From a virus, in the IMG/VR virus record IMGVR_UViG_3300043464_001719, positions 1 to 23,499 of that record: 23,499 nt of DNA; one strand, 5' to 3'. Below, one piece after another: positions 7,653 through 23,499 of this stretch; within the stretch, counting starts at the first letter, position 1; each line of letters starts with the position of its first letter. The notes beneath the pieces were generated by a model. The model saw only the letters and a program-made list of their open reading frames with translations, ran no database searches and was not told the origin of the DNA. A program made the translations under genes and the position numbers.

Positions 7653-8435
7653 ATTGGCTATCAGCTTTTCTACATTTATACTTCTTATGGTGTTTCCTGT
7701 TACCAGAAGCAACCGAATACATCTTACTTCTACTTAATCCATTTTCTAAACAATAATCAGATAAATTTACAACAAACTCTTCAACACCATCGGGATTTAT
7801 AACAATCCATTCTTTTTGTTTTGATTCAATATTTCTTTTTAATACATCTTCTCTTAAATTATACTCTCTAAGTTTCTGTTTAGTTTCTTCTTTTGGTATT
7901 CGCCCTCTTGATTTATCTCCTATTTTTCTTTTATGTCCATCTGATTTTGGTTACCCTTATGTGCCTCACTTATTTTACGTTTTACTGTATCATTATGCTT
8001 TCTGCCAGTACCAAGCATTCTTAAAAGTGCTTTTGTTTCGTCACTATGAGTTTTACCATAAAATCCATTATCACTTCCAATTCTTTTCTCTGGCCTATTG
8101 GCAATAAAAATATTCATAAGAATGCCACATTCATCAAATCCTTTGCGGCCATATTTAAGAATTTCTTGCTCTTCTAAAATATAAGCAGCTTCTTCATTCA
8201 TTCCCTCACGTATCTTAATAACAACGGGCTCAATTCCAGCAGCTCTAAGATTCCTAATATATCCACCAAGCCTCTTATTGTGCGAATAATTGTTCCTGGC
8301 GCTAAGATGTTGATAGCACCTCCATTTTTTACCCTTTCCAATATAAAAAGGAGACCCACTTAATGGATTAATAAGATGGTAGACGTAATAGTCAGATCTA
8401 ACATCATAAACACGTTCATCATTTTTCTGAAACAT
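7651..8435 (-). pseudogene. GIY-YIG homing endonuclease, frameshifted
   Basis: Reading from 8435 leftward, the first 171 codons encode a GIY-YIG nuclease domain (YYVYHLINP near 16-24, SPFYIGKG near 28-35, a Glu-rich helix EEAAYILEEQEILKYG near 81-96 with the likely metal-binding Glu). NUMOD3-type DNA-binding repeats follow (GSDNGFYGKTHSDETK, GTGRKHNDTVKRKISEAH) until a stop at 7920. In another frame the NUMOD3 pattern continues at once (GDKSRGRIPKEETKQKL) and ends in a DNA-binding module of the Seg type (WIVINPDG, NLSDYCLENGLS, YKCRKADSQ) with a stop at 7651. Adding one base at the A5 run (T5 at 7923-7927 on +) would restore 261 residues. It could be real decay, an assembly error, or -1 slippage. 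It overlaps the upstream endonuclease gene by 17 bases. Confidence 0.8.
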
Positions 8436-10983: not shown

Positions 10984-11466
10984 TCAAACTTTAATATAGC
11001 CAAGGTTAATATCCCGAACTATGGCAGCTGCTGCCGCCATATGATTTCCTCCATGATATAACTCGTTCTCAATACAAGCTGCAATACGCTCTTCAGCATT
11101 AAGGCTTTCTGGATAATACAGTAAACCACTGCCTCTATGTTCTGTGCTTTTAAGGTTTTCGCTTGACTCCAATCTCCAATTACTTCTATAAGTATCACAG
11201 ACATAAACGCCAGGCTCAAACTTTCCAACACGTAAAACAATTTGCAGTGCAGTTTCGGTTTGCTGGTGTAACTCATCATAATCAACATCACTATCTGGCG
11301 ACAGGTCTTCTCCAGTTAAGATCTTATGAATGTCACCATTAACATCACTGTTACCATAAGGTCGTTTGGGATCAATTTCGGGAGCACCCGTTTCACTATA
11401 ACCCCACCCAACCCACATGTGTCTTAGTAGTTTAATGTGGTCTGCAGTTAGTCTAAATTTTTTCAT
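10984..11466 (-). CDS. Hypothetical phage protein, 160 aa
   Basis: A soluble 160-residue protein starting MKKFRLTADHIKLLRHMWVG, with a segment GAPEIDPKRPYGNSDVNGDI near 27-46 and ETALQIVLRVGKFEPGVY near 71-88. This pattern (helix, GAP-ID-KRPYGNS, ALQIVL) recurs in uncharacterised proteins of large phages, so the N-terminal ~100 residues are probably a conserved domain. The C-terminal part (ENELYHGGNHMAAAAAIVRD) is helical. No enzymatic motif is recognisable. The start overlaps the stop of the preceding gene by 4 bases (ATGA), indicating coupled translation within the - strand block. The function is unknown. Confidence 0.65.
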   Translation of the reverse strand: MKKFRLTADHIKLLRHMWVGWGYSETGAPEIDPKRPYGNSDVNGDIHKILTGEDLSPDSDVDYDELHQQTETALQIVLRVGKFEPGVYVCDTYRSNWRLESSENLKSTEHRGSGLLYYPESLNAEERIAACIENELYHGGNHMAAAAAIVRDINLGYIKV

Positions 11467-12050
11467 TCAATAACTCTTCCATTTTGATCGGCCCATACTT
11501 GTTTAGGTAAAGGTAGACTACACAATTGTTTAATATGTGCGACTCCACGTTCAGTTGTTCTATGTGTGCTCAAATTTGTAGTGTCAACTCCATGTTCATA
11601 AACTTGCGGTTCAATAAGGAGACACATCTCCAAATTGGCTAAACCCGATTTTACACATGGACTATCAATTCTTGGATGTATTTCGGGGGAGGTGTAGCAG
11701 TGTAATAAAATCTCAATTTCTGCTGGTGAAAATTTAGTCATATTTATTTGGGTAGTGGTTGAAAGTGGTTCATAAAGGCCGCCAAAAGAGTATGTGTAAC
11801 GGTTCAGGGGTGCCCAGGGTTGTCTAGGAACAACCTGATACCATGGACATAGAGCATTTCCATTGCTAGAGTATCCCCTGGGAAGACGTTCGTGGGTAAT
11901 GTGAGAGCAATGAATCTGGACAAGATCTTTACACGATTCTGGATAGTTTGTATTACTAAATCCGTTTAATGCATCTTCAGCCGTTGGTAAGCGATCTACA
12001 GTCCAACTCTCAGCCGATGCATGACTCTCCCAATTTAAGTTGAGATTCAT
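11463..12050 (-). CDS. Hypothetical protein with C-terminal winged-helix-like domain
   Basis: 195 residues. The N-terminal half is rich in Trp, Pro, Asn and Ser and unrecognised. The C-terminal ~85 residues (KFSPAEIEILLHCYTSPEIH, LEMCLLIEP, TERGVAHIKQLCSLPLPKQV) match a pattern common in phage hypotheticals: helix, short-chain helix, then 'T-x-x-G-x-x-x-I-x-x-L-x-x-x-P-L-P', as in winged-helix proteins. Whether it binds DNA is not shown. It overlaps the next gene by 4 bases and is separated from the ATP-grasp gene upstream by 61 bases, the longest gap in this part of the block. Confidence 0.6.
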   Translation of the reverse strand: MNLNLNWESHASAESWTVDRLPTAEDALNGFSNTNYPESCKDLVQIHCSHITHERLPRGYSSNGNALCPWYQVVPRQPWAPLNRYTYSFGGLYEPLSTTTQINMTKFSPAEIEILLHCYTSPEIHPRIDSPCVKSGLANLEMCLLIEPQVYEHGVDTTNLSTHRTTERGVAHIKQLCSLPLPKQVWADQNGRVIE

Positions 12051-12111
12051 TATATGTTACACTCCATCATCAAAAAAGTAAAGTAAAGAAAGCGGTAAAA
12101 TAATTAACATA

Positions 12112-12873
12112 TTACACTAAATTAGAAAATAGGATTTGACTCCAACGAGAAACTAACATATCGGCATATTCCTGCCTTGACGGAGGATTTGATTGATGAT
12201 CATTATTCTCGTAAAATCCTAGTGACCAGGCATCATTAAGTTCCACAAGACAATACTGATTCAGATCAGGTCTCCATCCAATATCAATCGTGTATGCACC
12301 AGGAGCCCCGATTGCTTCCAAATCTTTCATAATGTTAATAACCAATTCAGAATCCGGTAGAGGATTTATTACTTGTTTGTCATCATATCTCGACCATCCC
12401 AGAATTTTGCCGCCACCAATTGAGTCTCGTATATAAAAGCGAAATTCAGCCTCAAAGGGTACAGGCTCAGAAATCCAAACTGGTGTGTCATCAGAAATTA
12501 GACCGGGCATCTCCAACTCGATTTGCTCCTTTATATTACCAGTGAACAACTTTATGAAAATTGGCTTTACAAATTCTTCAGTAGATGCCTCACCGTAAGT
12601 TCCGAGTCTGATAGATCTCATAAGATATTTGTCTAAATTACCACCATATCCATATGAAAAGTCTTCTGGTAACACCAAATTGACATGTTGGCTATATGCC
12701 TGAGCAAACTCTACCGAACCAACAGGAACAAACTGTGATATGGATGTTTTCTGGTCTAACTGTGAAATATCACCGAAAGAGCAGTACCTAATAGGATAAT
12801 TCGAAAAGCTACATGCAACTTTTTCGGTTTGTAGTGTGCCTCCAGATTGTAGAAGAAAAATGGGATCTTTCAT
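12112..12873 (-). CDS. ATP-grasp domain protein (R2K-like clade)
   Basis: A 253-residue ATP-grasp-fold protein, a family that uses ATP to join a carboxylate to an amine or thiol. Visible elements: FVKPIFIKLFTG near 101-112 with the lysines expected to contact ATP; VWISEPVPFEAEFRFYI near 132-148 with Glu136, Glu143 and Arg145; GAYTIDIGW near 192-200 with Asp197; and LVELNDAWSLGFY near 209-221, where Glu211, Asn213 and Asp214 should bind Mg. This order (E-P-V-x-F-x-x-E-x-R, then D-x-G, then V-E-x-N-D-x-x-S-L-G) is that of the R2K clade found in phages and bacteria. Its N-terminal part varies and may select the substrate. A role in peptide tagging or protein modification is proposed for relatives; the substrate here is unknown. 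Confidence 0.75.
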   Translation of the reverse strand: MKDPIFLLQSGGTLQTEKVACSFSNYPIRYCSFGDISQLDQKTSISQFVPVGSVEFAQAYSQHVNLVLPEDFSYGYGGNLDKYLMRSIRLGTYGEASTEEFVKPIFIKLFTGNIKEQIELEMPGLISDDTPVWISEPVPFEAEFRFYIRDSIGGGKILGWSRYDDKQVINPLPDSELVINIMKDLEAIGAPGAYTIDIGWRPDLNQYCLVELNDAWSLGFYENNDHQSNPPSRQEYADMLVSRWSQILFSNLV

Positions 12874-12883
12874 TGTTGGGGTA

Positions 12884-13153
12884 TTAACCTAGAACCGAAT
12901 GACGGTGATTATAATTGGTCAATTTAGTTAGCGGTGGAACATATCCACCCATTAACCAGCCAACCCATTCATTTCTTGTCCAAATAAATGTGGAATAACC
13001 TGGAGCTTCACCGATAGCTGTTTCACGAAAATTATTTTTATCAATTTGTTCAGCTCTAAAAGTGGCCTGATTTTCCCAATAAAACCGACCAATATTACCA
13101 CCGTTGGGGCCAATTTTTATTATGTCTTCTGGTATAAAAATTGTTTCATTCAT
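12884..13153 (-). CDS. Small hypothetical protein, 89 aa
   Basis: I place the start at 13153 (MNETIFIPEDIIKIG) rather than 13177. It gives an 8-base overlap with the upstream gene like the other junctions in this cluster, and a GGAAAAAA stretch lies just before it. The 89-residue product is Trp- and aromatic-rich (RFYWENQ, FIWTRNEWVGWLMGGY) with no transmembrane-length hydrophobic run. It is not an obvious relative of the three small paralogues upstream. It lies 10 bases upstream of the ATP-grasp gene, so the two are probably co-translated. The function is unknown. Confidence 0.6.
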   Translation of the reverse strand: MNETIFIPEDIIKIGPNGGNIGRFYWENQATFRAEQIDKNNFRETAIGEAPGYSTFIWTRNEWVGWLMGGYVPPLTKLTNYNHRHSVLG

Positions 13154-13394
13154 GGATTTTTTCCAATTCGTCTGCAATAGATAAAACTAAAAACTTTGGA
13201 TCTCCAGATTGCCAGTCAACCTCAAGAGCTAGAGTACGAAGCACGGATGTAATAGACCAATCCGTTTTCATTATTTTCTGAGCAACCCGGCTTAATTTAT
13301 TATCATCTGTCGGTAAAAAGAGTTTGCTGAGATCATTTTCGGCTCTTAATCTTAGAGCGGCTTCTAGCAGTGGTGGAATGTTAAGATTATTCAT
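13146..13394 (-). CDS. Small helical paralogue A, 82 aa
   Basis: One of three consecutive small genes that look like tandem duplicates. The product is all-helical: LLEAALRLRAENDLS at the start, ITSVLRTLALEVDW in the middle and a closing LSIADELEKIHE. The middle 'A/V-L-R-A-L' and final 'ADEL-x-x-x-H-E' segments recur in the next gene upstream, and the middle one also in the third. I prefer the ATG at 13394 (MNNLNIPP) over 13403, because it gives an 8-base ATGAATAA overlap with the upstream stop, matching the neighbouring junctions. No known domain is recognised. It may be a small anti-host or regulatory protein of the early block, but that is guesswork. Confidence 0.6.
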   Translation of the reverse strand: MNNLNIPPLLEAALRLRAENDLSKLFLPTDDNKLSRVAQKIMKTDWSITSVLRTLALEVDWQSGDPKFLVLSIADELEKIHE

Positions 13395-13632
13395 GGTATT
13401 CATCTAATTCGTCTGCAATGTCTTTGAGCTGCTCAGCCGTGAGTAGCATAGTATTAAAATCTCCCCAGGCATAGTGCTTTGCATTGGCACGAATGGCATT
13501 GGCAAGACATTTTAGATCTTGATTAAGGGGTTCATCGGGAAAGTTTAACCTAAATGCCTCCACTACCGCTTTGATTTTTGGACTCGGGGTGTTATGTTGG
13601 CCCTGATAATAACCTTGACTAGGACTACACAT
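13387..13632 (-). CDS. Small helical paralogue B, 81 aa
   Basis: The middle member of the small tandem family. After a Ser/Gln-rich N-terminus (MCSPSQGYYQGQHN) it reads KIKAVVEAFRLNFPDE, then LKCLANAIRANAKHYAWGDF and finally LLTAEQLKDIADELDEYHE. The last segment matches paralogue A (SIADELEKIHE) residue for residue in its ADEL and HE positions, and the middle helix matches in position. Its start overlaps paralogue C by 8 bases (ATGTGTAG) and its stop overlaps paralogue A by 8 bases (ATGAATAA). The function is unknown. Confidence 0.6.
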   Translation of the reverse strand: MCSPSQGYYQGQHNTPSPKIKAVVEAFRLNFPDEPLNQDLKCLANAIRANAKHYAWGDFNTMLLTAEQLKDIADELDEYHE

Positions 13633-13843
13633 CGTTTAATTCTTCAATGATTTTTAATACTTCATCAACTCTCACCGCATTTACCTTTCCATCGTTGGCG
13701 TCATAAACATTTTCTGATTTATGTTTGATTAATGCCCGAAGAACAGCCGCGATTTGTAGAGCTGGTCCATCACCATCATACCAACGGCTATTATTCTGAT
13801 TTATGCTATAGTAGGCATTTAAGAGTATATCTTTATCGTTCAT
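13625..13843 (-). CDS. Small helical paralogue C, 72 aa
   Basis: The first member of the small tandem family in transcription order. It starts MNDKDILLNAYYSINQNNSR, then GPALQIAAVLRALIKHKSEN and a final VDEVLKIIEELNDV. The 'I-A-x-V-L-R-A-L' helix and 'L-x-x-I-x-E/D-E-L' end correspond to the shared segments of paralogues A and B, but the C-terminal HE is missing, so it is the most diverged. It overlaps the upstream gene by 4 bases (ATGA). No catalytic motif is seen. The function is unknown. Confidence 0.6.
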   Translation of the reverse strand: MNDKDILLNAYYSINQNNSRWYDGDGPALQIAAVLRALIKHKSENVYDANDGKVNAVRVDEVLKIIEELNDV

Positions 13844-14061
13844 ACTAAATACCTGATTATGAGCATACCATCTGCATTAAACCGAACTCTTTTATTTTCA
13901 CAATCTAACTCAGTCAGATCTTGAGGGCACATTTTTAGAATGAGTTTCCAAATCTGTTTACTACACCATCTCCAGCCAGATTCATCACTTGGACTACGCT
14001 CAATCAACTTGAGAATATTCTTCTGATCGGGTGTCAATTTCTGTTGTTGAGAATCTGCCAT
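13840..14061 (-). CDS. Small hypothetical protein, 73 aa
   Basis: 73 residues, MADSQQQKLTPDQKNILKLI, then GWRWCSKQIWKLI and a C-terminal ELDCENKRVRFNADGMLIIR. The helix-rich start and a short beta-hairpin-like end suggest a winged-helix or small regulatory fold, but this is only a shape guess. It is the first gene after a 69-base gap that carries a plausible sigma70-type promoter (14085-14113), so it probably leads the small-gene cluster through to the ATP-grasp gene. The function is unknown. Confidence 0.6.
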   Translation of the reverse strand: MADSQQQKLTPDQKNILKLIERSPSDESGWRWCSKQIWKLILKMCPQDLTELDCENKRVRFNADGMLIIRYLV

Positions 14062-14084
14062 TGGATTAAAAGCGATTTGAAATG

Positions 14085-14113
14085 ATCATACACTGTTTTG
14101 ATTTGGTTGTCCT
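14085..14113 (-). promoter_or_regulatory. Candidate internal sigma70-type promoter
   Basis: On the - strand AGGACA, 17 bases, TATGAT, about 24 bases upstream of the ATG at 14061. The -10 is identical to that of the main - strand promoter at 19974; the -35 matches TTGACA in four of six positions. It lies in one of the few intergenic gaps of the block. Confidence 0.45.
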
Positions 14114-14130
14114 GATTTATGTGACAGTTA

Positions 14131-14325
14131 TCAGAATGTCACAAGACGAGCGGCAGGAAATTGTGGTTTTAGTAATGGTTTATTAAGAGCTTTACACATT
14201 TTATAATAAGTTACTTGACTTATAGTATCTGTGTCTAATTCCATGTCGCTAGCATAAGATAAGAACAACATATATTCATCTCTATCTAAATCTTTTGACG
14301 GGATCATATTATTAAACTTCACCAT
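14131..14325 (-). CDS. Small hypothetical protein, 64 aa
   Basis: 64 residues beginning MVKFNNMIPSKDLDRDEYML, mostly polar with helical stretches (YKMCKALNKPLLK), ending PAARLVTF. The ATG at 14325 overlaps the upstream gene by 14 bases; the in-frame ATG at codon 7 (14307) would abolish the overlap, so the exact start is uncertain. It is followed by the 69-base gap with the candidate promoter, so it may close the preceding transcription group. No family is recognised. Confidence 0.5.
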   Translation of the reverse strand: MVKFNNMIPSKDLDRDEYMLFLSYASDMELDTDTISQVTYYKMCKALNKPLLKPQFPAARLVTF

Positions 14326-14677
14326 ACTTTTTCTTTAGCTCTTCCAGTAACTTGCGTTCTTTTTGTTCAAGTTCAATTTTATCTTGTGCTCTTCTTATTT
14401 TAGTCTTTTTTAGATTTTCTCTATAAATTTCATAAAGCCTAACCCGTTCATTATACTCATCATCAGTTTCTTCTCTATCACAATATAGCCTGACATATGG
14501 CACAAAATCTTTAAGATCATAATAATCAGGATCATATTCACCCAACGTTATTCCATACCAACCTTCCGCGATTAACTTTTCAATTAAGACTATAAGATTC
14601 TTAAGGTCATAATAATTAGTGGTTAGAGTATAGAACTGAGACTTCTGTACTTTGATTTTTTCTTTAGGTTTTTTCAT
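14312..14677 (-). CDS. Hypothetical coiled-coil protein, 121 aa
   Basis: 121 residues, strongly charged. The first half contains YYDLKNLIVLIEKLIAEGWY and an acidic aromatic stretch (YDPDYYDLKDF). The second half (about 73-121) is a long Lys/Glu-rich helix (ELEQKERKLLEELKKKYGEV) with heptad-like leucines, probably a coiled coil. It sits 5 bases after the repeat-protein gene and overlaps the next by 14 bases. The function is unknown. Confidence 0.6.
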   Translation of the reverse strand: MKKPKEKIKVQKSQFYTLTTNYYDLKNLIVLIEKLIAEGWYGITLGEYDPDYYDLKDFVPYVRLYCDREETDDEYNERVRLYEIYRENLKKTKIRRAQDKIELEQKERKLLEELKKKYGEV

Positions 14678-14682
14678 TGCAA

Positions 14683-15165
14683 TTATTTCGTACTATTATA
14701 AAACTCATAGGCTCTTACAGTTTGAATGACTTCTCGGGTAGCGTTTGAGTTTTTTGCAACACAATAGCGAACACTCGCATCCTTATCTCGGGCAAGAACT
14801 GTTAGAGCTTCTGGTGAAGTGTTGGGGTTGTATGCAACTTCCCAGCGAACATTAAAGCACTCATCTCTAGCAAGAAGTGTTAGAGTTTCCGGAGGAGTGT
14901 TGGGGTTGTCTGCAACTCTCCAGCGAACACCCCATTCCTCATCTCGGGCAAGAATTGTTAGAGTTTCTGGTGGTGTGTTGAGGTTTTTTGCAACATAACA
15001 GCGAACACTAGAATTCTTATCTCGGGCAAGGAGTGTTAGAGTTTCTGGTGAAGTGTTGGGATTGGATGCAACCCCCCTGCGAACAGTAAAATACTCATCT
15101 CGGGCAAGAAGTGTTAGGATTTCTGTTGGTGTGTTGTGTTCTGAGGCGAGTTCAAATTTGTTCAT
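14683..15165 (-). CDS. Alpha-solenoid protein of 26-residue repeats (LRV/HEAT-like)
   Basis: 160 residues made almost entirely of a tandem repeat of exactly 26 residues. One unit is NTPPETLTLLARDE followed by a variable pair, VRW-x-VA and two to three residues ending N-P. Five units are clear, plus a degenerate start (MNKFELASEHNTPTEILTLL) and cap. The pattern of Pro, Leu and 'V-R-x-x-V-A-x-N-P' is that of leucine-rich-repeat-variant/HEAT-type superhelical proteins, which act as binding scaffolds. No enzymatic domain is attached. A second member starts at 23294 on the other strand. Variation concentrates at the two positions after 'RD' and around 'VR', likely the exposed binding face. The partner is unknown. 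Confidence 0.8.
   Translation of the reverse strand: MNKFELASEHNTPTEILTLLARDEYFTVRRGVASNPNTSPETLTLLARDKNSSVRCYVAKNLNTPPETLTILARDEEWGVRWRVADNPNTPPETLTLLARDECFNVRWEVAYNPNTSPEALTVLARDKDASVRYCVAKNSNATREVIQTVRAYEFYNSTK
14720..15125 (-). repeat. 78-bp tandem DNA repeats in the solenoid gene
   Basis: The segment gttagag recurs at 14801, 14879, 14957, 15035 and, slightly changed, 15113, always 78 bases apart. The coding repeats are well conserved at DNA level, so unit number could change by recombination. One 45-base stretch (14936-14980) is identical, inverted, to 23362-23406. Confidence 0.9.
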
Positions 15166-15219
15166 ATATGAGGATTATGTACCAACATATGGTAACACAC
15201 GTTCAAGATATTCTAGAAT

Positions 15220-16305
15220 CTATGTGCCACTTTTTAGATCGGCTGCTAAAAAGTTAAATAGCCTATCTGATAGATGCTCAAATAGCATTAGTTTCTTTTC
15301 ATTTTCAGTATTGTAGCGTCTACCAAGAAGATTCGTAAGAAAATCAATATCTTCTTGTTTAATGGACATTTTTATTTCAACGGTTGGTGTAAGATCAATT
15401 AAAATCTTTTTTGCCACAATATTGATTGATTTATCGCCAATATCTTTGATTTTTTGATGAACCCTACACTCTTCTTCAAACTTATCAAAAAGGTCACTTT
15501 GTCTTTTATGTTCAAACTGTAAATTCCAGGCAATTAAACCGATATTACTAATATAAGATTCTTTAAGACTCGTAGCCGGGTCATTAAACATCGGCATATC
15601 CGTATATTTTACAGTTGTCTTTGTAAACCTAGGATCACTTTCAAAAATCTCATCAAATTTATTCTTTTCTTCTCTAATTGTTGATGAAATATTAATTTTA
15701 CTTAACTTACTTGCAGCTAAACAAGGATATACAACATTAAAAAAGTCATCTACTACATTCTTTGGCATATATGCCATTTCATCTAGAAATACTGCATCAA
15801 GAGAAATTCCATGGAGAGAATTATGAGTTACTGCCCCAGCTCTGGAACCATTCTTAAAGCTTATAGTATAGCTGTTATTTATGACATCTCCGGGTTTTAG
15901 AAAGTCTGGTACACTATCATAGAGCGATTTAAACCTTTCCAATAGCGCGAGCGTGCTACTATTATTAGACGACTTCACTACAACGGTTTTCCCGCTGTTA
16001 AAAATTACAAAATGTAAAAGTTGTAGAAGCCCGCATAGTGTTTTTGAAGAATGTCTGGGGGCTTTGATAATATTGAATCGGTTGTTATAAAAATTATTGA
16101 TAATGGCTTCCTGATAGTCATATAATTTAAAATTAACGGGGGTTGCCTCAGACGGTGTGAAAATTTTTACATAGTTATTAATAAAATATACCGGGTCTGT
16201 TGCACACTTTTCAATTTCTTCTAGTTGTTTTTGTGGCTCAATTTGTGCAATTTGAGTCTTAAGTTCTTGTAGCTCTTTATATGTTAAGTTGTCTAGATTA
16301 ATCAT
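15220..16305 (-). CDS. Terminase large subunit-like ATPase without nuclease domain
   Basis: 361 residues resembling the N-terminal ATPase half of T4-type terminase gp17, which powers DNA packaging. Signs: DPVYFINNYVKI, the adenine-binding-type LYDYQEAII, a Walker A-like APRHSSKT, KTVVVKSSNN, SVPDFLKPGDVI, ISFKNGSRAGAV, Walker B LDAVFLDEMAYMP, then INISSTIRE, the usual motif III position, and IAWNLQFE. T4 gp17 has ~610 residues with a C-terminal nuclease; here the homology ends near the domain boundary and about 75 unrelated residues follow. In Walker A the usual Gly before Lys is Ser (SSKT for GKT). The gene lies in the - strand block of small and DNA-metabolism genes, not beside head genes. 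It may be a duplicated, repurposed or decaying packaging ATPase. The true gp17 is not in the window. Confidence 0.75.
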   Translation of the reverse strand: MINLDNLTYKELQELKTQIAQIEPQKQLEEIEKCATDPVYFINNYVKIFTPSEATPVNFKLYDYQEAIINNFYNNRFNIIKAPRHSSKTLCGLLQLLHFVIFNSGKTVVVKSSNNSSTLALLERFKSLYDSVPDFLKPGDVINNSYTISFKNGSRAGAVTHNSLHGISLDAVFLDEMAYMPKNVVDDFFNVVYPCLAASKLSKINISSTIREEKNKFDEIFESDPRFTKTTVKYTDMPMFNDPATSLKESYISNIGLIAWNLQFEHKRQSDLFDKFEEECRVHQKIKDIGDKSINIVAKKILIDLTPTVEIKMSIKQEDIDFLTNLLGRRYNTENEKKLMLFEHLSDRLFNFLAADLKSGT

Positions 16306-16358
16306 TTGTTTGTTTCTTCAAATCTTTCTTTGTGCTTTAAATATTTCGCGTAGACATT

Positions 16359-16502
16359 TCAGTGAATTTTTACTATCTTATAAGTTTTTATATTACATGT
16401 AACATATCCATCACTTTCACTTGTTAGTGCTTTTCTCAACTGAACTTTTGCATTTGGGTCTCGAATTAATCTTTCTAATTCTCGGCTTATTCTACCTTTC
16501 AT
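16359..16502 (-). CDS. Small hypothetical protein, 47 aa
   Basis: A short frame filling most of the gap between the terminase-like gene and the 106-residue gene. It begins ATG at 16500-16502 and reads MKGRISRELERLIRDPNAKV, then LRKALTSESDGYVTCNIKTY, ending KIVKIH. The basic N-terminal helix and short beta-like end look protein-like, and the orientation matches the block. No good ribosome binding site is visible. The function is unknown. Confidence 0.45.
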   Translation of the reverse strand: MKGRISRELERLIRDPNAKVQLRKALTSESDGYVTCNIKTYKIVKIH

Positions 16503-16524
16503 TGACAATGGGGTTCAAGAATTT

Positions 16525-16845
16525 TTATTTGATCATGTGACTTTGTAATCTCCTTATTGCTACATCATTTAGAGAAAAAGTCCAAGATTGACCTTGAATG
16601 GATTCATTTCCATACTTCCAGATTGTATCTTCAGATAAATGTTGAGTTAGATTGTAACTTTTGTTATTGATGTGACCATTAATATGACGCAATGCCTGTT
16701 CAATATTAACAAACCAACCTTGATAATTACAGTCATCATAAAGGTGGCATCTTTTATCTTCCGATTCGTATAAAAATAATTTATAGTTTACTCTCACAAA
16801 GAGATCTTCAAGAGTTTTAATTTGTTCGGCTGTTGGGTTATTCAT
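16525..16845 (-). CDS. Hypothetical protein, 106 aa
   Basis: 106 residues, MNNPTAEQIKTLEDLFVRVN, then an aromatic and acidic middle (HLYDDCNYQGWFVNIEQALRHI) and a C-terminal WTFSLNDVAIRRLQSHM. It is soluble, with no membrane segment and no recognisable catalytic motif. It is placed 16 bases after the DNA ligase gene in the same transcription direction. I do not recognise a family. Confidence 0.6.
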   Translation of the reverse strand: MNNPTAEQIKTLEDLFVRVNYKLFLYESEDKRCHLYDDCNYQGWFVNIEQALRHINGHINNKSYNLTQHLSEDTIWKYGNESIQGQSWTFSLNDVAIRRLQSHMIK

Positions 16846-16861
16846 TTATGTTCTCAATTAA

Positions 16862-17734
16862 TTATACATCATCCTCGTCGCGAAAGCCAAGAAAAACAGG
16901 ATGTCTCGGCAAATCCTTAACACCTTGGGGGAAGTATTTATATTTGACAAGTTTCCCAAGGTATTCATTCTTATTGCTCCAAATCTCATTCCGCATTAAA
17001 TCATTTAGACCAGAACCGACTCCAAATACCTGACCTTCTTTATTTTTAACGATTAGCGTGCCTGCAGTATTTGCTCCAACTAATCCAGAAATTGAGGATG
17101 ATCTTTTGGTTCTACCAAAGGCATCTTTTTGGACCTCATTCTCATTGTGCATCTTTTCTTCAATATCAATAAGAATTGCCTCATCATCTAAAAATCTCTT
17201 TACCTTAAGAAGAATATTATCTCTTACTGTGGATCGTCCAAACTTATATGTCCCGAATGGATCTCTTAACATTACTCCTTCATATCCACCTTCAAGGCAA
17301 ATTATTTCATATGAATCAAGTTCTTCTTGATTATTAACAGTTACTCCAGTTAACAGTTTATATTGACAGGTATTTGGAAAAGTTGGAAAGTTAAGAATTC
17401 TTAAGTAATACGGAAGAATGTCTTCTTGATCGGGATCAACATAATCAAAAAGCCATACCTTAAAATCGGGTTCACCCTCAATACTCATTACTCCGCTGCT
17501 AGATGATTGAAATGTATCACCAACTGTAATTTCTCCATCTACACCATCGGTTAGAGTTTCACTTAAAACTCGTTGAATGTAATTGTTTCTAATGGGTTTA
17601 AATGTGCGAGATACTACAACACCATTAACCATAAGAAATCTAATTCCGTCAATCTTTGGAGATGCAATATATGGAAATTTGGCTTTAGTTTCGTCAAAAT
17701 TTCCAGCGAGTAATGGCTTTTTAATTTGTGGCAT
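16862..17734 (-). CDS. ATP-dependent DNA ligase
   Basis: A 290-residue small ligase that seals nicks in DNA. Nucleotidyltransferase motifs: SPKIDGIRF at 25-33 with the adenylated Lys27 (motif I, KxDGxR), VSRTFKP near 41-47, DGVDGEITVG near 63-72 with the motif III-type Glu68, EGVMLRD at 152-158 (motif IV) and LLKVKRF near 175-181 (motif V). After ~184 comes an OB-fold-sized C-terminal domain with LVKYKYFPQGVKDLPRHPVF near the end (motif VI-like basic region). It lacks the extra N-terminal DNA-binding domain of T4 gp30 (487 residues), so it belongs to the minimal phage/bacterial type. The start overlaps the preceding gene by 14 bases. It probably acts in phage replication and repair with the nearby UvsY/UvsW system. 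Confidence 0.92.
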   Translation of the reverse strand: MPQIKKPLLAGNFDETKAKFPYIASPKIDGIRFLMVNGVVVSRTFKPIRNNYIQRVLSETLTDGVDGEITVGDTFQSSSSGVMSIEGEPDFKVWLFDYVDPDQEDILPYYLRILNFPTFPNTCQYKLLTGVTVNNQEELDSYEIICLEGGYEGVMLRDPFGTYKFGRSTVRDNILLKVKRFLDDEAILIDIEEKMHNENEVQKDAFGRTKRSSSISGLVGANTAGTLIVKNKEGQVFGVGSGLNDLMRNEIWSNKNEYLGKLVKYKYFPQGVKDLPRHPVFLGFRDEDDV

Positions 17735-18095
17735 TTAAATATAGTTCTCTTAATTTTTTAGCTGTTTCAGATATTTTTCTCTTACCGAAGCCTTTTGGCA
17801 ATGGGAAAATTATTTTATTCTTAACGTTGGCACTAAACTTATCACCATAAGGAGCCCATCCATCACCACAATGGATTTCAACGAAAACGACTTTACATTC
17901 ACCTTCCAAAGTAAATTGAGAAAGATTCAATAAGTAATGAATGGCATCATGTTCAGACCAGGCTTTTAAATAATCTTCATATGATACTGAATAGATTCCT
18001 CGGTCTCCATGCCACCGTACACTATTATTAAAATGATTTAAAGTTTGTACTTTATTGGGACATACTTCATAATAAAATTCTTCAAGCGTCAACAT
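17721..18095 (-). CDS. Hypothetical protein, 124 aa
   Basis: The frame is open from an ATG at 18140, but that start would lie deep in the upstream gene. The ATG at 18095 (MLTLEEFYYEVCPNKVQTL) gives a 14-base overlap like that at the other end of this gene, and I prefer it. The product has RWHGDRGIYSVSYEDYLKAW and a beta-rich VVFVEIHCGDGWAPYGDKF, and ends with a helix (AKKLRELYLN). No known domain is recognised. It lies directly upstream of the ligase and is probably co-translated with it. Confidence 0.6.
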   Translation of the reverse strand: MLTLEEFYYEVCPNKVQTLNHFNNSVRWHGDRGIYSVSYEDYLKAWSEHDAIHYLLNLSQFTLEGECKVVFVEIHCGDGWAPYGDKFSANVKNKIIFPLPKGFGKRKISETAKKLRELYLNATN

Positions 18096-18867
18096 AATGG
18101 AAACTAAATACACAATGATTTCGCCAATATTTTTTATCAACCAGATTTCCTCCTATTAAAAGAGCATTTAATTCTGGGTTATTGTCCGAGAGATTATTTT
18201 TAATTACTTGTAGTATATCTCCAGATTCTTGAAGACTGTCTAATGATAATATGCTTTTATAACTCCGATTCCATTCTCTTGTGCTAATAAATTTTCCATC
18301 AACTTGTGGAAAAAATTTCACATTATCAGAAAAAGTGATTTTCAAAGTTCTCATTCTAGGCGCTTCAATATAAATTTCATAATGAATATCGGTCTCATTT
18401 AAGATTCTATTTTCATGTGCGACCACAATATCCGAAGGCTGGTCTAAAACATTTTCATCAACGGCTTTATTTTTTAAGAAAAGTCCAATATATTCATTTA
18501 GACTCATTTTCTTTGCTGAGGGGTTTGTTTCATACATTTTAATTTGATCATTAACCGCTTGAGCATTCTTTATAATTTCCTTTGAATATAAAAACTTTCT
18601 CTGCAAAGAAATGGCATATTTTTTGGCAATCTGTTCATCAGTAAAAACTAGAAAATCACTACCAAATATGTTAAAACCTTGCTGTATTGGCCAACCATCA
18701 CAGGAACTATTAGAAAAAACTGGAACAAATCCACAAAAAGTATGAGATTTGCCGAATATCTCAACGATTTGGATTTTTTTTGTTAAGTGCCAATCTACAT
18801 AACCTTTTAAATCTATTAATTCTCTTTCGGTTGTTGGGAATTTTAAGTCAGGATAAAATTTATTCAT
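18082..18867 (-). CDS. Hypothetical protein, 261 aa
   Basis: 261 residues, MNKFYPDLKFPTTERELIDL. It has an early beta-rich part (KIQIVEIFGKSHTFCGFVPV), a central helical region around ALSLQRKFLYSKEIIKNAQ-like sequence, and a C-terminal mixed part with LRTLKITFSDNV-like strands. It has no membrane segment, Walker motif or nuclease motif. The start overlaps the preceding stop by 8 bases (ATGAATAA). I do not recognise a family; it belongs to the same co-transcribed block as the ligase. Confidence 0.6.
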   Translation of the reverse strand: MNKFYPDLKFPTTERELIDLKGYVDWHLTKKIQIVEIFGKSHTFCGFVPVFSNSSCDGWPIQQGFNIFGSDFLVFTDEQIAKKYAISLQRKFLYSKEIIKNAQAVNDQIKMYETNPSAKKMSLNEYIGLFLKNKAVDENVLDQPSDIVVAHENRILNETDIHYEIYIEAPRMRTLKITFSDNVKFFPQVDGKFISTREWNRSYKSILSLDSLQESGDILQVIKNNLSDNNPELNALLIGGNLVDKKYWRNHCVFSFHYVDA

Positions 18868-19588
18868 AATACCGATCTCTTTTCATATAGTTGAAAGCTT
18901 CTTCAAGTGTAGCGAATTCGTCGCTATTACTGTAGCGGCCCCGTCCAATTTTTACTTTCTTTGTTTTAGGATGAATCAGTAAACTACAACTGTTTCCATG
19001 TTCAGAAAGATAATGATCAAAAATTGGAAAAATTAAATATCCTTCGTCATCTTTATAAGTTACACTATTCATTACTTTACTCAATTCAGACTCAAACACC
19101 GAAAACTCCCCATCTTTTGATGTTCTAATTTGAAATGTAATGTATGTTTCAGAATAATCATTACTATTATGATAAACATTTACTCCAAAAAGATGTTTAG
19201 AAATACTGTAAAGTTCTGGCCAAGTTTTATAATGCTCATACTTGATTTCTCTATCATTATGTTTTTGATAAATCCACCAATCAATAACTTCATCAAGAGA
19301 TTCGCCATTATATGGTCTTGATACTGTGGTGTTAATACACTTACGAGTCCCCCTAACTGTACCGGATTCTACCCATTTGTCATATTCTTCAATAGCGGTT
19401 GCTGCATCAACAATTTTAGAATATTTGGCCACTGAAGAATAAGTATCAATAAATTCTTGAGCTTTTTCTCTTGTTTCAAATTGGGTTGCAAATTTTGGGC
19501 TATACAGTTCCTCAAATTTCTCCGAATCAACTAGTCTTGCATAATAGGGAATGGGTTGGTCAAAATCGTGCTTGATGATGTAGCTCAT
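18860..19588 (-). CDS. Hypothetical protein, 242 aa
   Basis: 242 residues, MSYIIKHDFDQPIPYYARLV. It contains a helix KFATQFETREKAQEFIDTYS and ends in a short element, SDEFATLEEAFNYMKRDRYY, that mirrors it: both read 'F-A-T ... E-x-A-x-x-F'. This suggests two copies of a small domain of the kind that records position-dependent variables in phage hypotheticals. The middle is rich in aromatic and acidic residues. It is the second gene from the - strand promoter, 36 bases after the first. The function is unknown. Confidence 0.6.
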   Translation of the reverse strand: MSYIIKHDFDQPIPYYARLVDSEKFEELYSPKFATQFETREKAQEFIDTYSSVAKYSKIVDAATAIEEYDKWVESGTVRGTRKCINTTVSRPYNGESLDEVIDWWIYQKHNDREIKYEHYKTWPELYSISKHLFGVNVYHNSNDYSETYITFQIRTSKDGEFSVFESELSKVMNSVTYKDDEGYLIFPIFDHYLSEHGNSCSLLIHPKTKKVKIGRGRYSNSDEFATLEEAFNYMKRDRYYE

Positions 19589-19624
19589 ATGTTTAGGTAA
19601 TAATAATGTTGGGCCTATTCAGTA

Positions 19625-19921
19625 TCACAAAAACCTCCAACGATTAACATATGGTTTAGATGTGTTTCCGTCGGACAGTAATACCATTGGACCCACAGCC
19701 CAGATAGTAGGAAATCTATAAGCGAATAATGTTCCTTCAGGTAAACTGTTTACTTTATATGAAATGGTTTGAGCACATTCTCCATCATCATCTTGTATTA
19801 AAACAACTCGTCCACCTGTTAAGCGTGCTATCAACCTTAAGTAAAGGCTCTTATGGTGATGCTTATAAAAGAGTGCATCATAGAGAATTTGCTGGTAGTC
19901 TTCTTTTCGTAGGTTGACCAT
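19625..19921 (-). CDS. Hypothetical protein, 98 aa, first gene of the - strand block
   Basis: 98 residues, MVNLRKEDYQQILYDALFYK, followed by a basic His-rich helix (HHHKSLYLRLIARLTGG) and beta-like segments (RVVLIQDDDGE, GTLFAYRFPTIWAVGPMVLL). It has no full transmembrane helix and no known motif. It starts about 46 bases downstream of the predicted start point of the strong - strand promoter, so it should be among the earliest and most abundant products of this block. First genes of early phage operons often take over host functions, but nothing in the sequence proves that here. Confidence 0.6.
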   Translation of the reverse strand: MVNLRKEDYQQILYDALFYKHHHKSLYLRLIARLTGGRVVLIQDDDGECAQTISYKVNSLPEGTLFAYRFPTIWAVGPMVLLSDGNTSKPYVNRWRFL

Positions 19922-19973: not shown

Positions 19974-20002
19974 ATCATAACACACCCTCTTCCATTTGTC
20001 AA
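19974..20002 (-). promoter_or_regulatory. Strong sigma70-type promoter for the - strand block
   Basis: On the - strand TTGACA (20002-19997), 17 bases, TATGAT (19979-19974): a perfect -35, ideal spacing and a 5/6 -10. Transcription would begin near 19967 and enter the 98-residue gene at 19921. This is the expected form of a phage early promoter read by the unmodified host polymerase. Confidence 0.85.
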
Positions 20003-20049
20003 GCCCCCTCTTGAAATATCCGGATACCATGACGTAGTATTAATGCCTA

Positions 20050-20078
20050 TTGACAAACTCTTATGTTCCTGTTATGCT
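20050..20078 (+). promoter_or_regulatory. Strong sigma70-type promoter for the gp3-uvsY-uvsW cassette
   Basis: On the + strand TTGACA (20050-20055), 17 bases, TATGCT (20073-20078). It points away from the - strand promoter, with 47 bases between the two -35 boxes. The transcript would run through the small membrane protein gene at 20133 into gp3, uvsY and uvsW. Confidence 0.8.
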
Positions 20079-20132
20079 ACGCTTTGTCAAAAGTGATGCC
20101 ACCCCCTTTATTAACTATTATTTAATAATATT

Positions 20133-20267
20133 ATGACACCTGAAGAGATTGAAAAATTAATTGACGATAAGATTGCAAAACATGAATATAGAGTTGGAAT
20201 CGTAAGTGGTATCATAGGAACACTAATACTATTAGGAATCTTTCATGCAATTTGTTTTGTACGTTGA
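20133..20267 (+). CDS. Small membrane protein, 44 aa
   Basis: A short gene with ATG at 20133. The product begins with an acidic/basic helix, MTPEEIEKLIDDKIAKHEYR, then a hydrophobic segment of about 23 residues (VGIVSGIIGTLILLGIFHAI and CFV) ending in a single Arg. It is therefore a one-pass membrane protein with a short cytoplasmic or periplasmic head. It is the first gene after the + strand promoter at 20050, about 48 bases downstream of the likely transcript start. Small membrane proteins of this kind are frequent early phage products, but no function can be given. A late-type box for gp3 overlaps its stop codon. Confidence 0.65.
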   Translation: MTPEEIEKLIDDKIAKHEYRVGIVSGIIGTLILLGIFHAICFVR

Positions 20268-20273
20268 TAAATA
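20266..20273 (+). promoter_or_regulatory. Late-promoter-like box GATAAATA before gp3
   Basis: GATAAATA starts 31 bases before the gp3 ATG, like the boxes upstream of gp21 and gp22. It would allow late expression of the virion protein gp3 independently of the early promoter at 20050, from which uvsY and uvsW could be read earlier. Confidence 0.5.
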
Positions 20274-20296
20274 ATTGATATAAGAACACAAATGTA

Positions 20297-20851
20297 ATGT
20301 CAGGTAATTGTTCACCTATTGAAAATAGGAACTTTTTATCACCAAATCAGTTCAAATTTACATTAAAACGTGCTCCAAAGGCAGCATTTTTTTCCAATAG
20401 TGGTAACATTCCTGCACTAAGATTAGGAACAGCTAATCAACCAACATATCTTAAGATGATTGATCAACCTGGTGATATGATCACCTTTGAAGATTTCACC
20501 TTTAAGTTTATGGTGGATGAAGATTTAACCAACTATACTGAGATACAAAATTGGATAAGAGGACTAGGATTTCCTTATTCATTACAGCAAATCATAGATT
20601 TACAAAAAACTAGGCCAGACTTAAAGTCAAACATAACCAATCAACTGAACATTGTATCGGATGGTACACTTTTTATACTATCCAGCAACAATAAGACGAA
20701 TGTTCAGGTAAGATTTTATGATATGTGGCCATATGATCTAACATCATTGCTTTTTGATGCAAACAATAGTGATTCACAATACCTCACAGCGGAGGTAAAA
20801 ATGAAATATACATACTATGACATCAGAAATGCAAAAGGTGAGCTTTTATGA
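20297..20851 (+). CDS. 3: Tail completion and sheath stabiliser protein gp3
   Basis: 184 residues (T4 gp3: 176). T4 gp3 caps the tail tube and stabilises the contracted sheath attachment before joining to the head. Matching points against T4 gp3 in order: an N-terminal 'F-x-x-x-x-x-x-A-P' strand with NIPALRLG; a DQPGDMITFEDFTFKFMVDE segment parallel to T4's 'V-x-F-E-Y-x-x-x-x-x-R-F-I-V-D-E-E-L', followed by NWIRGLGFP; then GTLFILSSNNKTNVQV and RFYDMWPYDLTSLLFD, parallel to T4's 'T-L-Y-I-L-x-x-S-K-T' and 'F-Y-x-x-W-x-x-D-L'; and the end MKYTYYDIRNAKGELL, parallel to T4's 'Y-T-Y-F-x-V-x-K-D-G'. The position before uvsY-uvsW is as in cyanophage genomes. The stop overlaps uvsY by 4 bases. Confidence 0.85.
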   Translation: MSGNCSPIENRNFLSPNQFKFTLKRAPKAAFFSNSGNIPALRLGTANQPTYLKMIDQPGDMITFEDFTFKFMVDEDLTNYTEIQNWIRGLGFPYSLQQIIDLQKTRPDLKSNITNQLNIVSDGTLFILSSNNKTNVQVRFYDMWPYDLTSLLFDANNSDSQYLTAEVKMKYTYYDIRNAKGELL

Positions 20852-21285
20852 AAATTTTGGATATTAATGCTATTCAAGAGATGTGGAGAGAAGATGCAAA
20901 AATTGATCCAGACGACTTACACAACGAATCGCTAAAAATTCCAGAGCTACATGCAAAGTATTATGAGATTTTTACAAATCTACTATTACTAAAAAAGAAT
21001 TGCGAAGAAAATAAGAAAAGAATCAGACACGAAAAATACGAGTATTATACTGGCAAAGCAGAAGCAGAGACTTATATTCAAAATCCTCTAGATAAAAGGG
21101 TAAGAGACAAAGAGCATCTTCAAAGTTGTCTTAATGCTGATGCTGACATTTCAAAAATAAATATTAAGATTGAAATATATGATGTGAGTCTTGCATTTCT
21201 TCAGGACATCATTAAGATGCTTCATAATCGTTGTTTTCAAATTAAAAACAGCCTGGATGCTCAAAAATATATCAGTGGTCTATAA
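20848..21285 (+). CDS. uvsY: Recombination mediator UvsY
   Basis: 145 residues (T4 UvsY: 137). UvsY loads the UvsX recombinase onto single-stranded DNA covered by gp32 and is needed for recombination-dependent replication. The product is helical and charged. The N-terminal part has DDLHNESLKIPELHAKYYEI, the middle carries the family's basic helix and HEKYEYYTGKAEAE (T4: 'A-R-L-D-Y-Y-S-G-R-G-D-G-D-E'), then LNADADISKINIKIE (T4: 'L-S-A-D-K-D-V-L-K-V') and a C-terminal LHNRCFQIKNSLDAQKYISG (T4: 'R-G-F-A-I-K-x-I-x-D-x-x-x-F'). It is coupled to gp3 by ATGA and to uvsW by a one-base TAATG junction. uvsX itself is not in the window. Confidence 0.9.
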   Translation: MKILDINAIQEMWREDAKIDPDDLHNESLKIPELHAKYYEIFTNLLLLKKNCEENKKRIRHEKYEYYTGKAEAETYIQNPLDKRVRDKEHLQSCLNADADISKINIKIEIYDVSLAFLQDIIKMLHNRCFQIKNSLDAQKYISGL

Positions 21286-22757
21286 TGTCAGACGTAATAA
21301 TCTCAAAGAAGAATGAAGTCTTTCTTAAGCTAAAATGTGAGCCGCACATTCTTTATGAACTGCATCCTTACTTCACCTTTGAGGTAAATAATGCAAAGTA
21401 CATGAAGCGTTATAATAAAGGGTGGAACGGTCAGGTCACATTACTGAGCACGACTACCGGTGAAATATATGTTGGTCTTTTGGATAGAGTTATTGCCAAA
21501 CTTAAAGTTCTAGGATACTCTTATGAATTTGAGTACAATAAGTTTTATGGAAGTCCTTTTGAGGTAAATGAGGAGATTACCCATGCGGGTACTGAAGGCT
21601 TCCTGAGAGCCGTCTGTAAGGCCCTACAACCCTATGATTATCAGGTTAGTGCAGTGTATGAGTGTCTGAGGTATAATAGGAAAACTATCGTCTCGGCAAC
21701 GGCATCTGGTAAGAGTTATGTGATATATGGAATCATCAGATACCATGTTGCAAAGAACCATAAATGTCTAATTGTATTTCCCACTACCAGTCTTGTAAGA
21801 CAGATGTTTACAGATTGGCAGTCTTATGGCTGGAATCCTGAAGATCATTGTCATATGATCTATGATGGAGCAATTAAGAGTAATGATTCTGAAGTAACAC
21901 TCTCAACCTGGCAATCTTTGATTAATTGTCCCAAATCATTCTTTGAAGATTTTGATTGTGTTATTGTTGATGAATGTCATGGTTGTAAGGCAAATAGCCT
22001 GGTTTCAATTATGAAAAATTGTCATCAGGCAAAATATAGATATGGCTTTACTGGCACTTTAACAAACGGTGGAGAAGATTCAAAGACCCACGAATGGGTT
22101 ATTTCAGGTTTGTTTGGGCCACCTTATAAGGCCGTTGGCACTAAAGAGTTAATTGAAAAAGGCAGAGCCTCAAAGCTTGATATTCAATGTATAGTGCTCA
22201 AGCATACTCCGAAATTCTTTGAAACATATGAAGACGAGATAAAGTACATAATCTCTCAAGAGAAGCGAAACAACTTTATTAAAAACCTTGCTCTAAGTCT
22301 TAAGGGTAATACTCTTATACTTTTTTCCAGAGTAGAAACTCATGGTCAGTTACTTTTTGATGCCATAAATAATGGTACAAGCCAACACAAAGTTTTCTTT
22401 GTTCATGGTGGAGTTGATACCGACGAAAGAGAAGAAATCCGAAACATCAGCGAAAGAGAAGACAATGCAATCATTGTTGCATCTTATGGAGTCTTCAGTA
22501 CGGGTATTTCAATTAAGAATCTTCATAATCTTATTTTTGCCTCTCCGTTTAAATCGCGCATTCGCAATATGCAAAGCATCGGACGGCTATTGAGATTGAA
22601 TCATAATAAAAAGGTTGCAAAAGTTTACGATATTGCTGACGATATTACGATTAATAACAGATCAAATTATACCTTGAAACACTTTATGGAAAGAGTTAAA
22701 AACTATAATGAAGAAGAATTTGAATATGACATCAAAACAATCAAACTAGGAGACTAA
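21285..22757 (+). CDS. uvsW: DNA/RNA helicase UvsW
   Basis: 490 residues (T4 UvsW ~500), a superfamily 2 helicase that unwinds R-loops, branch-migrates recombination intermediates and regresses forks, helping the switch from origin- to recombination-driven replication. After an N-terminal DNA-binding domain (about 1-110), the helicase core shows Q-motif-like LQPYDYQVSAV, Walker A ATASGKS at 138-144, VFPTTSLVRQM (motif Ia), LSTWQSL, the DECH box at 229-232, GFTGTL (motif III) near 254-259, ILFSRVETHGQLL (motif IV), ASYGVFSTGISIK (motif V) and QSIGRLLR at 430-437 (motif VI). All residues needed for ATP hydrolysis are present. It abuts the next gene without a gap. Confidence 0.95.
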   Translation: MSDVIISKKNEVFLKLKCEPHILYELHPYFTFEVNNAKYMKRYNKGWNGQVTLLSTTTGEIYVGLLDRVIAKLKVLGYSYEFEYNKFYGSPFEVNEEITHAGTEGFLRAVCKALQPYDYQVSAVYECLRYNRKTIVSATASGKSYVIYGIIRYHVAKNHKCLIVFPTTSLVRQMFTDWQSYGWNPEDHCHMIYDGAIKSNDSEVTLSTWQSLINCPKSFFEDFDCVIVDECHGCKANSLVSIMKNCHQAKYRYGFTGTLTNGGEDSKTHEWVISGLFGPPYKAVGTKELIEKGRASKLDIQCIVLKHTPKFFETYEDEIKYIISQEKRNNFIKNLALSLKGNTLILFSRVETHGQLLFDAINNGTSQHKVFFVHGGVDTDEREEIRNISEREDNAIIVASYGVFSTGISIKNLHNLIFASPFKSRIRNMQSIGRLLRLNHNKKVAKVYDIADDITINNRSNYTLKHFMERVKNYNEEEFEYDIKTIKLGD

Positions 22758-23111
22758 ATGGAAGAGGAATTTTATTCAGTTGTAAAATTAAAGAATGGTG
22801 AAGAACTGTTCTCTCAAGTATGTCCAACAGTTGAAGAGAATGTAGATCTTCTACTTTTATATTATCCAATAACAATTACTAGAGTTAGGACCAAAGAAGG
22901 TCTGGCATATTCAGTTGAACCTTGGATTAAAATAGGTAATGAAAGTATTTTTCCTATTCGTAGAGAAGATATACTTACTATGTCCGAAATTGAAGATGAA
23001 CATCTTATTGAATTACACAATAGATATGTTTCAACACGGGAAGATGATACTGGAAATATTAGCTTTAACGATGCTATACAGAAACTTGAACGTATTTATA
23101 ACGGCTCCTGA
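22758..23111 (+). CDS. Hypothetical protein after uvsW, 117 aa
   Basis: 117 residues with ATG directly after the uvsW stop, so it is translationally coupled to it. The first ~80 residues read as alternating strands: FYSVVKLKNGEELFSQVCPT, then LLLLYYPITITRV and YSVEPWIKIGNESIFPIRRE. The 'K-L-x-x-G-E-E-L' followed by 'Y-P-I-x-I' and 'x-P-W' resembles the small Sm-like proteins that are common among cyanophage hypotheticals, though I would not claim RNA binding. A helical tail follows (SFNDAIQKLERIYNGS). It is the last gene of the cassette. No terminator hairpin is visible after it. Confidence 0.65.
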   Translation: MEEEFYSVVKLKNGEELFSQVCPTVEENVDLLLLYYPITITRVRTKEGLAYSVEPWIKIGNESIFPIRREDILTMSEIEDEHLIELHNRYVSTREDDTGNISFNDAIQKLERIYNGS

Positions 23112-23168
23112 TCTTTACTGTATTAAATAATAGTTAATAAAGGAGTGTCATCACTTTTGACAAAGCGG

Positions 23169-23197
23169 AGCATAGCAGGATACTTAGAGTTTGTCAA
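23169..23197 (-). promoter_or_regulatory. Sigma70-type promoter directed antisense into the uvsW cassette
   Basis: On the - strand TTGACA (23197-23192), 17 bases, TATGCT (23174-23169). It is the counterpart of the 20050 promoter, but here it points left, toward the 3' end of the 117-residue gene and uvsW, with no - strand gene to serve for several kilobases. Confidence 0.7.
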
Positions 23198-23244
23198 TAG
23201 GTAATAATACTAAGTCACGGTATCCTGATATTTCAAGAAGGGGC

Positions 23245-23273
23245 TTGACAAATGGAAACGGGTGTGTTATGCT
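23245..23273 (+). promoter_or_regulatory. Strong sigma70-type promoter for the second repeat protein
   Basis: On the + strand TTGACA (23245-23250), 17 bases, TATGCT (23268-23273). The transcript would start near 23280, at or just before an ATG at 23281 that opens a 12-codon frame, and 13 bases before the ATG of the repeat protein. Confidence 0.85.
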
Positions 23274-23293: not shown

Positions 23294-23499
23294 ATGACAA
23301 CCGAAACAAACCCTCTTAGTAATCTTTCGTTGCAAGAACGGAAAGACCTTGCGGAAAACTCCAACACACCACCAGAAACTCTAACAATTCTTGCCCGAGA
23401 TGAGGATAGGGATGTTCGCCGTAATGTTGCAAACAACCCCAACACACCACCAGAAGCCCTAACAATTCTTGCCCAAGATGAGGATTTGAATGTTCGCTG
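23294..23499 (+). CDS. Second 26-residue-repeat solenoid protein (3' partial)
   Basis: The frame starts at ATG 23294 and runs off the window after 68 codons. After a short N-terminal helix (TNPLSNLSLQERKDLAE) it enters the same 26-residue repeat as the gene at 14683-15165: NTPPETLTILARDED, VRRNVANNPNTPPEALTIL and so on. The DNA repeat step is again 78 bases. A 45-base stretch (23362-23406) is identical to part of the other gene. It is led by its own strong promoter; the leader is only about 13 bases and has no clear Shine-Dalgarno site. The full length and number of repeats are not visible. Confidence 0.8.
   Translation, partial: MTTETNPLSNLSLQERKDLAENSNTPPETLTILARDEDRDVRRNVANNPNTPPEALTILAQDEDLNVR

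Follow-up and report, generated by a model that had tools for sequence, protein, structure and literature searches.

A putative bidirectional promoter module, repeated at three fixed sites in large T4-like cyanophage genomes, evolves in concert within each genome

The window analysed here, a 23.5-kb piece of one virus record, encodes a prohead protease, a scaffold protein, the major capsid protein, gp3, uvsY, uvsW and a conserved protein of 117 amino acids, in that order. The last four lie together on the plus strand: gp3, of the tail completion / tail tube family (20297-20851; phrog_45), the gene of the recombination mediator UvsY (20848-21285; phrog_231), that of the UvsW helicase (21285-22757; phrog_16), and the gene of the 117-residue protein, which is named 'methylamine utilization' in phrog_471 (22758-23111). 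Upstream of gp3 the sequence contains a short ORF of 44 amino acids (20134-20268, plus strand), the site of which is taken in other clades by a different gene of 63-71 amino acids, and a predicted late promoter, GATAAATA (NATAAATA), at 20266-20273 (plus strand), assigned from the consensus in PMC2984593; ATAAATA precedes gp3 both in the window and in all 12 relatives inspected. The order gp23-gp3-uvsY-uvsW-gp55-gp47-gp46 and the cyanophage type of the proteins are those of a T4-like, Kyanoviridae-like cyanophage, and by gene content and order the window virus is classified as one, the closest isolate being Synechococcus phage B23, whose gp3 is 57% identical. Within the prohead protease gene gp21 (3231-4988, plus strand) there is an intein, seen as an Intein_splicing match flanked by Peptidase_S77.

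The four-gene cassette is bracketed by a pair of modules that the first-pass annotation had described as two inverted, non-coding segments of about 154 bases, about 88% identical, each with two back-to-back promoters. This description holds in all its parts. The left copy (L, 19976-20127, plus strand) and the right copy (R, 23121-23271, minus strand) lie about 3 kb apart and are inverted relative to each other with about 89% identity (blastn, 19976-20127 against 23271-23121), and their local alignment reaches a score of 220, where 500 shuffles gave at most 31; the evidence also supports a nature that is neither coding nor IS-derived. Each copy contains two divergent sigma70-like promoters composed of TTGACA, a 17-base spacer and TATG(A/C)T, the -10 being preceded by a TG extension, and all four score 10-11 of 12 in a promoter scan of the window. 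We call the outward promoter of each module P1 and the inward one P2. P1L (19974-20002, minus strand; TTGACA-17-TATGAT; 11/12) faces an accessory island on the counter strand, and P2L (20050-20078, plus strand; TTGACA-17-TATGCT) faces gp3-uvsY-uvsW. With the same TTGACA-17-TATGCT arrangement, P2R (23169-23197, minus strand) is antisense to the 117-aa gene and uvsW, and P1R (23245-23273, plus strand) faces gp55-gp47-gp46 in the relatives, in some cases with one or a few small genes in between, whereas in the window a leucine-rich-repeat-variant (LRV) gene comes first. Immediately behind the -10 of P2L is a conserved element, ACGCTTTGTCAAAAGTGAT, at 20079-20097 (plus strand; about -6 to +13), with CCGCTTTGTCAAAAGTGAT as its counterpart behind the -10 of P2R (23150-23168, minus strand), and the left module ends in an AT-rich tail of clade-specific sequence (20098-20127, plus strand). 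An antisense late promoter, TATAAATA, at 23100 (minus strand) was discarded as a chance occurrence in coding sequence, since apart from the window it is confined to the nearest relative.

In six isolate cyanophages gp23, gp3, uvsY, uvsW, gp55, gp47 and gp46 form a tight group on a single strand, in most cases joined by the 117-aa gene. The module-bearing clade has an island between gp23 and gp3 which starts at P1L, and apart from this island nearly all genes lie on one strand. In the window it spans 10984-19921 (minus strand; gene calls with Pfam and PHROGs, and the same island in relatives) and encodes a DNA ligase, an LRV protein, the N-terminal half of a terminase, an R2K ATP-grasp protein and hypothetical proteins; in G002, one of the two largest relatives, it reaches about 22 kb and 33 genes. 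Several of the genes in and around the island deserve record for themselves. LRV genes with 78-base repeat units flank the cassette (14683-15165, minus strand, and 23294-23499, plus strand, the latter starting behind P1R and running off the window) and are inverted relative to each other, with about 83% identity over 151 bases. A paralogue resembling the N-terminal half of the large terminase lies at 15220-16305 (minus strand), and G002 has a second terminase match (192232-192795) besides the full-length one. The R2K-type ATP-grasp gene lies at 12112-12873 (minus strand), and a gene that begins in a similar way lies behind the third module copy of G002. Between gp23 and the island, at 7920-9933 (minus strand), a GIY-YIG/NUMOD3-type homing endonuclease-like gene adjoins a 504-aa ORF without a Pfam match.

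For comparison, 18 relatives were fetched with gp3 as the query and more with uvsW, the 117-aa protein and the pattern of the P2 start region. By profile search the module is found at the left, the right or both ends of the cassette in contigs of five clades covering them, the left copy being matched in every relative that covers its site, and with two odd joins excepted the orientation is the same in every relative covering a cassette end. The more distant relatives L098-L104, whose uvsW is about 58% identical, were not matched by the profile. The two largest relatives, G001 (243 kb) and G002 (248 kb), each contain exactly three copies at the same three sites; the third copy follows a structural gene of about 2040 codons, and its P2 faces a cluster of small genes of unknown function. 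In G002, L016, L017 and L018, which represent two clades, the inner module edge downstream of P2 has tandem CTTAAG/CTTAAA-type motifs about every 9-10 bases, and elsewhere in G001 (227441-227644, minus strand) a psbA-like first stretch of about 62 residues ends in an abrupt stop and is possibly intron-interrupted, or a remnant. Outside this group blastn found no homologous module in isolate phages, and a profile search of six isolate cyanophage genomes gave only weak partial matches. The best of these, at 23 bits and E 1e-5, is a diverged pair of back-to-back promoters in B23 with neighbour genes unrelated to those of the third copy, and it was not accepted as a counterpart. No module was found in plasmids, and none of four pattern matches in bacterial genomes contained one by profile; the pattern matches L021, L022, L026 and L129 were likewise dropped, the full module being absent. 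Repeats do get misjoined in short-read assemblies, and one contig discussed below, L024, has such a signature, but both copies occur with distinct outer and inner flanks in all five clades, in separate samples and at 74-94% mutual identity, and many independent contigs have the two together; these contigs refute the notion that one copy is a misjoined duplicate, an explanation of negligible probability.

Conservation was computed over 30 distinct module copies. The -35 boxes of P1 and P2 are both 100% conserved and the -10 of P2 95%, against 68% for the P2 spacer, while the -10 of P1 reaches only 72% beside a spacer of 73% and has decayed to TGCGAC in the third copy of G001. The earlier statement that the hexamers are more conserved than the spacers is confirmed, the P1 -10 being the less conserved exception. 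A 19-base element right after the P2 -10, (C/A)CGCTTTGTCAAAAGTGAT, is 97% conserved; its core, GCTTTGTCAAA, occurs in the 243-kb G001 only at the three module copies. An occurrence of GCTTTGTCAAA at 223054 (minus strand) in G002 was rejected as a further module, the promoter context being absent. The most conserved part of the module is its P2 half including the start region, and P2R is conserved as strongly as P2L. Each module contains the motif TTTGTCAA/TTGACAAA three times, once in each -35 region and once in the start region of P2; a third promoter built on TTTGTCAA after P2 was rejected because a conserved -10 partner is absent, and that the motif in the start region serves as an operator is no more than a reasonable guess. 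Promoters of the P1 type, TTGACAAA-17-TGCTA, are found at several further places in G001. The module alignment contained no conserved RNA structure, with neither compensatory changes nor stem covariation.

The strong conservation of the P2 half with its start region would also suit R-loop origins of the kind of T4 oriF and oriG, in which P2 and the AT-rich tail would act as promoter and unwinding element and the promoter role would be secondary. The T4 origins need about 100 bp in which a promoter is followed by an AT-rich unwinding element, and T4 oriE apparently relies on an early promoter (PMC3016281). UvsW, encoded nearby, could remove R-loops, and in duplex stability the left copies fall within the lowest 2-4% of intergenic stretches. 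The duplex stability of other copies is ordinary, however (rank 0.60 for the third copy of G001 and 0.28 for the right copy of G002), and the sequence of the AT tail is not conserved between clades. GC skew follows the gene strand and makes no origin-like turn at the third copy, and as a means of locating an origin it proved uninformative. We consider an origin function for the modules quite unlikely.

Copies within one genome share 74-94% of their bases, with full identity (100%) confined to L024, a doubtful contig, whereas mean copy identity between clades is 61-79%, and between clades two copies are not more similar for occupying the same position. In the weakly constrained columns, that is the spacers, the inter-promoter stretch and the tail, identity is 0.76 within genomes and 0.51 between clades, whether at the same or at different positions, and in the AT tail alone it is 0.88 against 0.51. 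A tree groups the copies by phage clade with 4 changes, the minimum, as compared to 9 by position, and forcing all left copies into one clade costs 166 lnL units and is rejected. Single genomes provide examples: the left and right copies of L007 have in common a TTCC variant that the window lacks, and L028, a third copy, is a mosaic of left-type and right-type stretches. The left copies of clade III do cluster with one another, which shows that exchange is not continuous. These patterns indicate that the copies within each genome undergo concerted evolution, of which gene conversion among the copies is the simplest cause, and the T4-type recombination pathway, UvsY and UvsW included, would be the natural candidate to carry out the exchange. 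An old duplication without exchange, kept alike by plain functional constraint because the same promoters are needed everywhere, is in accord with hexamers and a start element that are near invariant in all copies, but the likeness within genomes extends to spacers and AT tail that are free to differ between clades, a position signal between clades is absent and a single clade of left copies is rejected, which makes this explanation very improbable. The earlier view of the segments as a duplicated regulatory cassette gains from the concerted evolution, as it does from the conservation in five clades and the third copy elsewhere. Concerted evolution of a dispersed promoter module would mean that phage recombination keeps distant regulatory DNA in step.

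The first-pass annotation had further suggested that recombination between the inverted repeats could invert the cassette, perhaps aided by UvsY and UvsW. Exchange between the copies makes such an event possible, and what is known of T4 makes help from these two proteins plausible, but the joins of cassette to flank are canonical save in L018 and in L024, the latter with an assembly signature. If the two modules do recombine and invert gp3-uvsY-uvsW in nature, the inward P2 promoters would leave gp3 with an early promoter ahead of it in either orientation, and this would keep P2R intact, which is conserved like P2L despite having no sense gene. In L024 a module of purely left type connects the end of uvsW with the left flank; bases 1-77 of this contig recur exactly, as the reverse complement, at its own 3071-3147, the signature of an assembly-graph overlap or of a break or misjoin at a collapsed repeat, and L024 may be either a real inversion or a misjoin. 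Its copies are apparently identical over at least 77 bases, compared with 89% in the window, which speaks for recent exchange. In L018 (3400-3662) a module joins the outer flank genes of the third copy to gp3, the small gene usually in between being missing; this single contig may represent either a rearranged genome or a misjoin. With all other contigs that join cassette and flank in a single orientation, we hold inversion in nature to be possible but doubtful. The bolder idea of the cassette as a recombinase-free unit that inverts naturally, in which gene-converted modules let gp3-uvsY-uvsW flip and be transcribed both ways, is unlikely.

The reading we prefer, at a probability of roughly 0.7, is that of a bidirectional early-promoter cassette of about 150 bp, located at three fixed sites in a T4-like cyanophage and homogenised by gene conversion. 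It builds on the observed anatomy, conservation, copy number, gene context and concerted evolution of the module, which from the sequences appears to be a real, conserved and repeated bidirectional promoter module of an uncultured clade of large cyanophages. We infer that its promoters fire, that they do so early and that the copies exchange sequence through the phage recombination pathway. P1 would belong with the promoters of its type dispersed elsewhere in the phage genome, and P2 would be a separate kind, marked by the conserved element in its start region. P1L would drive leftward transcription of the counter-strand island and P2L early transcription of gp3-uvsY-uvsW, a reading supported by the divergent gene layout, since the island runs on the counter strand from module L. 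P1R would transcribe gp55-gp47-gp46, and P2 at the third site the cluster of small genes. Cyanomyoviruses, in which homologues of motA and asiA are absent, presumably rely on sigma70-like promoters of the host type early and on NATAAATA promoters late (PMC2984593); P2L and the ATAAATA before gp3 match this published scheme, and gp3 would be transcribed early from P2L and also from its own late NATAAATA promoter. P2R would give an antisense transcript into the cassette, across the 117-aa gene and uvsW. Since no gene follows it on the sense side, a role as promoter only fails to explain its conservation unless gene conversion alone maintains it. The poor overall conservation of the P1 -10 and its decay in the third copy of G001 likewise count against the reading. 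The conserved antisense P2R and the symmetry of the inward pair provide a direct way of testing whether repeated promoters also shape the order of T4-like genomes.

Several known systems share features with this module. The G segment of Mu and the C segment of P1 are phage segments inverted by a recombinase, and the likeness lies in inverted repeats around a gene cassette; the repeats here are long and imperfect, however, the alternative orientation is not secured, and scans with Pfam and PHROGs found no site-specific invertase among the window genes. The sigma70-like early promoters of S-PM2 and Syn9 (PMC2984593) are likewise host-type with NATAAATA late promoters nearby, but here the promoters are paired back to back, repeated and homogenised, and such an arrangement is absent from the six isolate genomes tested. 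T4 oriF, or ori(uvsY), and oriG resemble the module in having a promoter and an AT-rich downstream stretch within about 100 bp, one of them next to uvsY, but they use MotA middle promoters, motA being reported absent from cyanomyoviruses (PMC3016281, PMC2984593), and share little homology (PMC3016281), in contrast to the near-identical copies of the module. The combination of promoter and AT-rich unwinding element is strong in the left copies and weak in the third copy of G001 and the right copy of G002. The PeSLs are reportedly the subject of studies by Arbiol in 2010 and Comeau in 2014. They are mobile promoter-early-stem-loop cassettes of T4-type phages and, as described in PMC4503421, resemble the module as short intergenic cassettes with sigma70-like early promoters that are repeated within one T4-type genome and linked to recombination. 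An intergenic cassette with a sigma70-like promoter, predicted from its sequence to be early, is what the module presents, and no stem-loop or terminator was found at either module. The module also differs in its two divergent promoters and long conserved start-region element, and in its three copies at fixed sites across clades in place of many-copy shuffling. Without a stem-loop and without shuffling between sites, it is a variant that resembles the PeSLs rather than a member of them.
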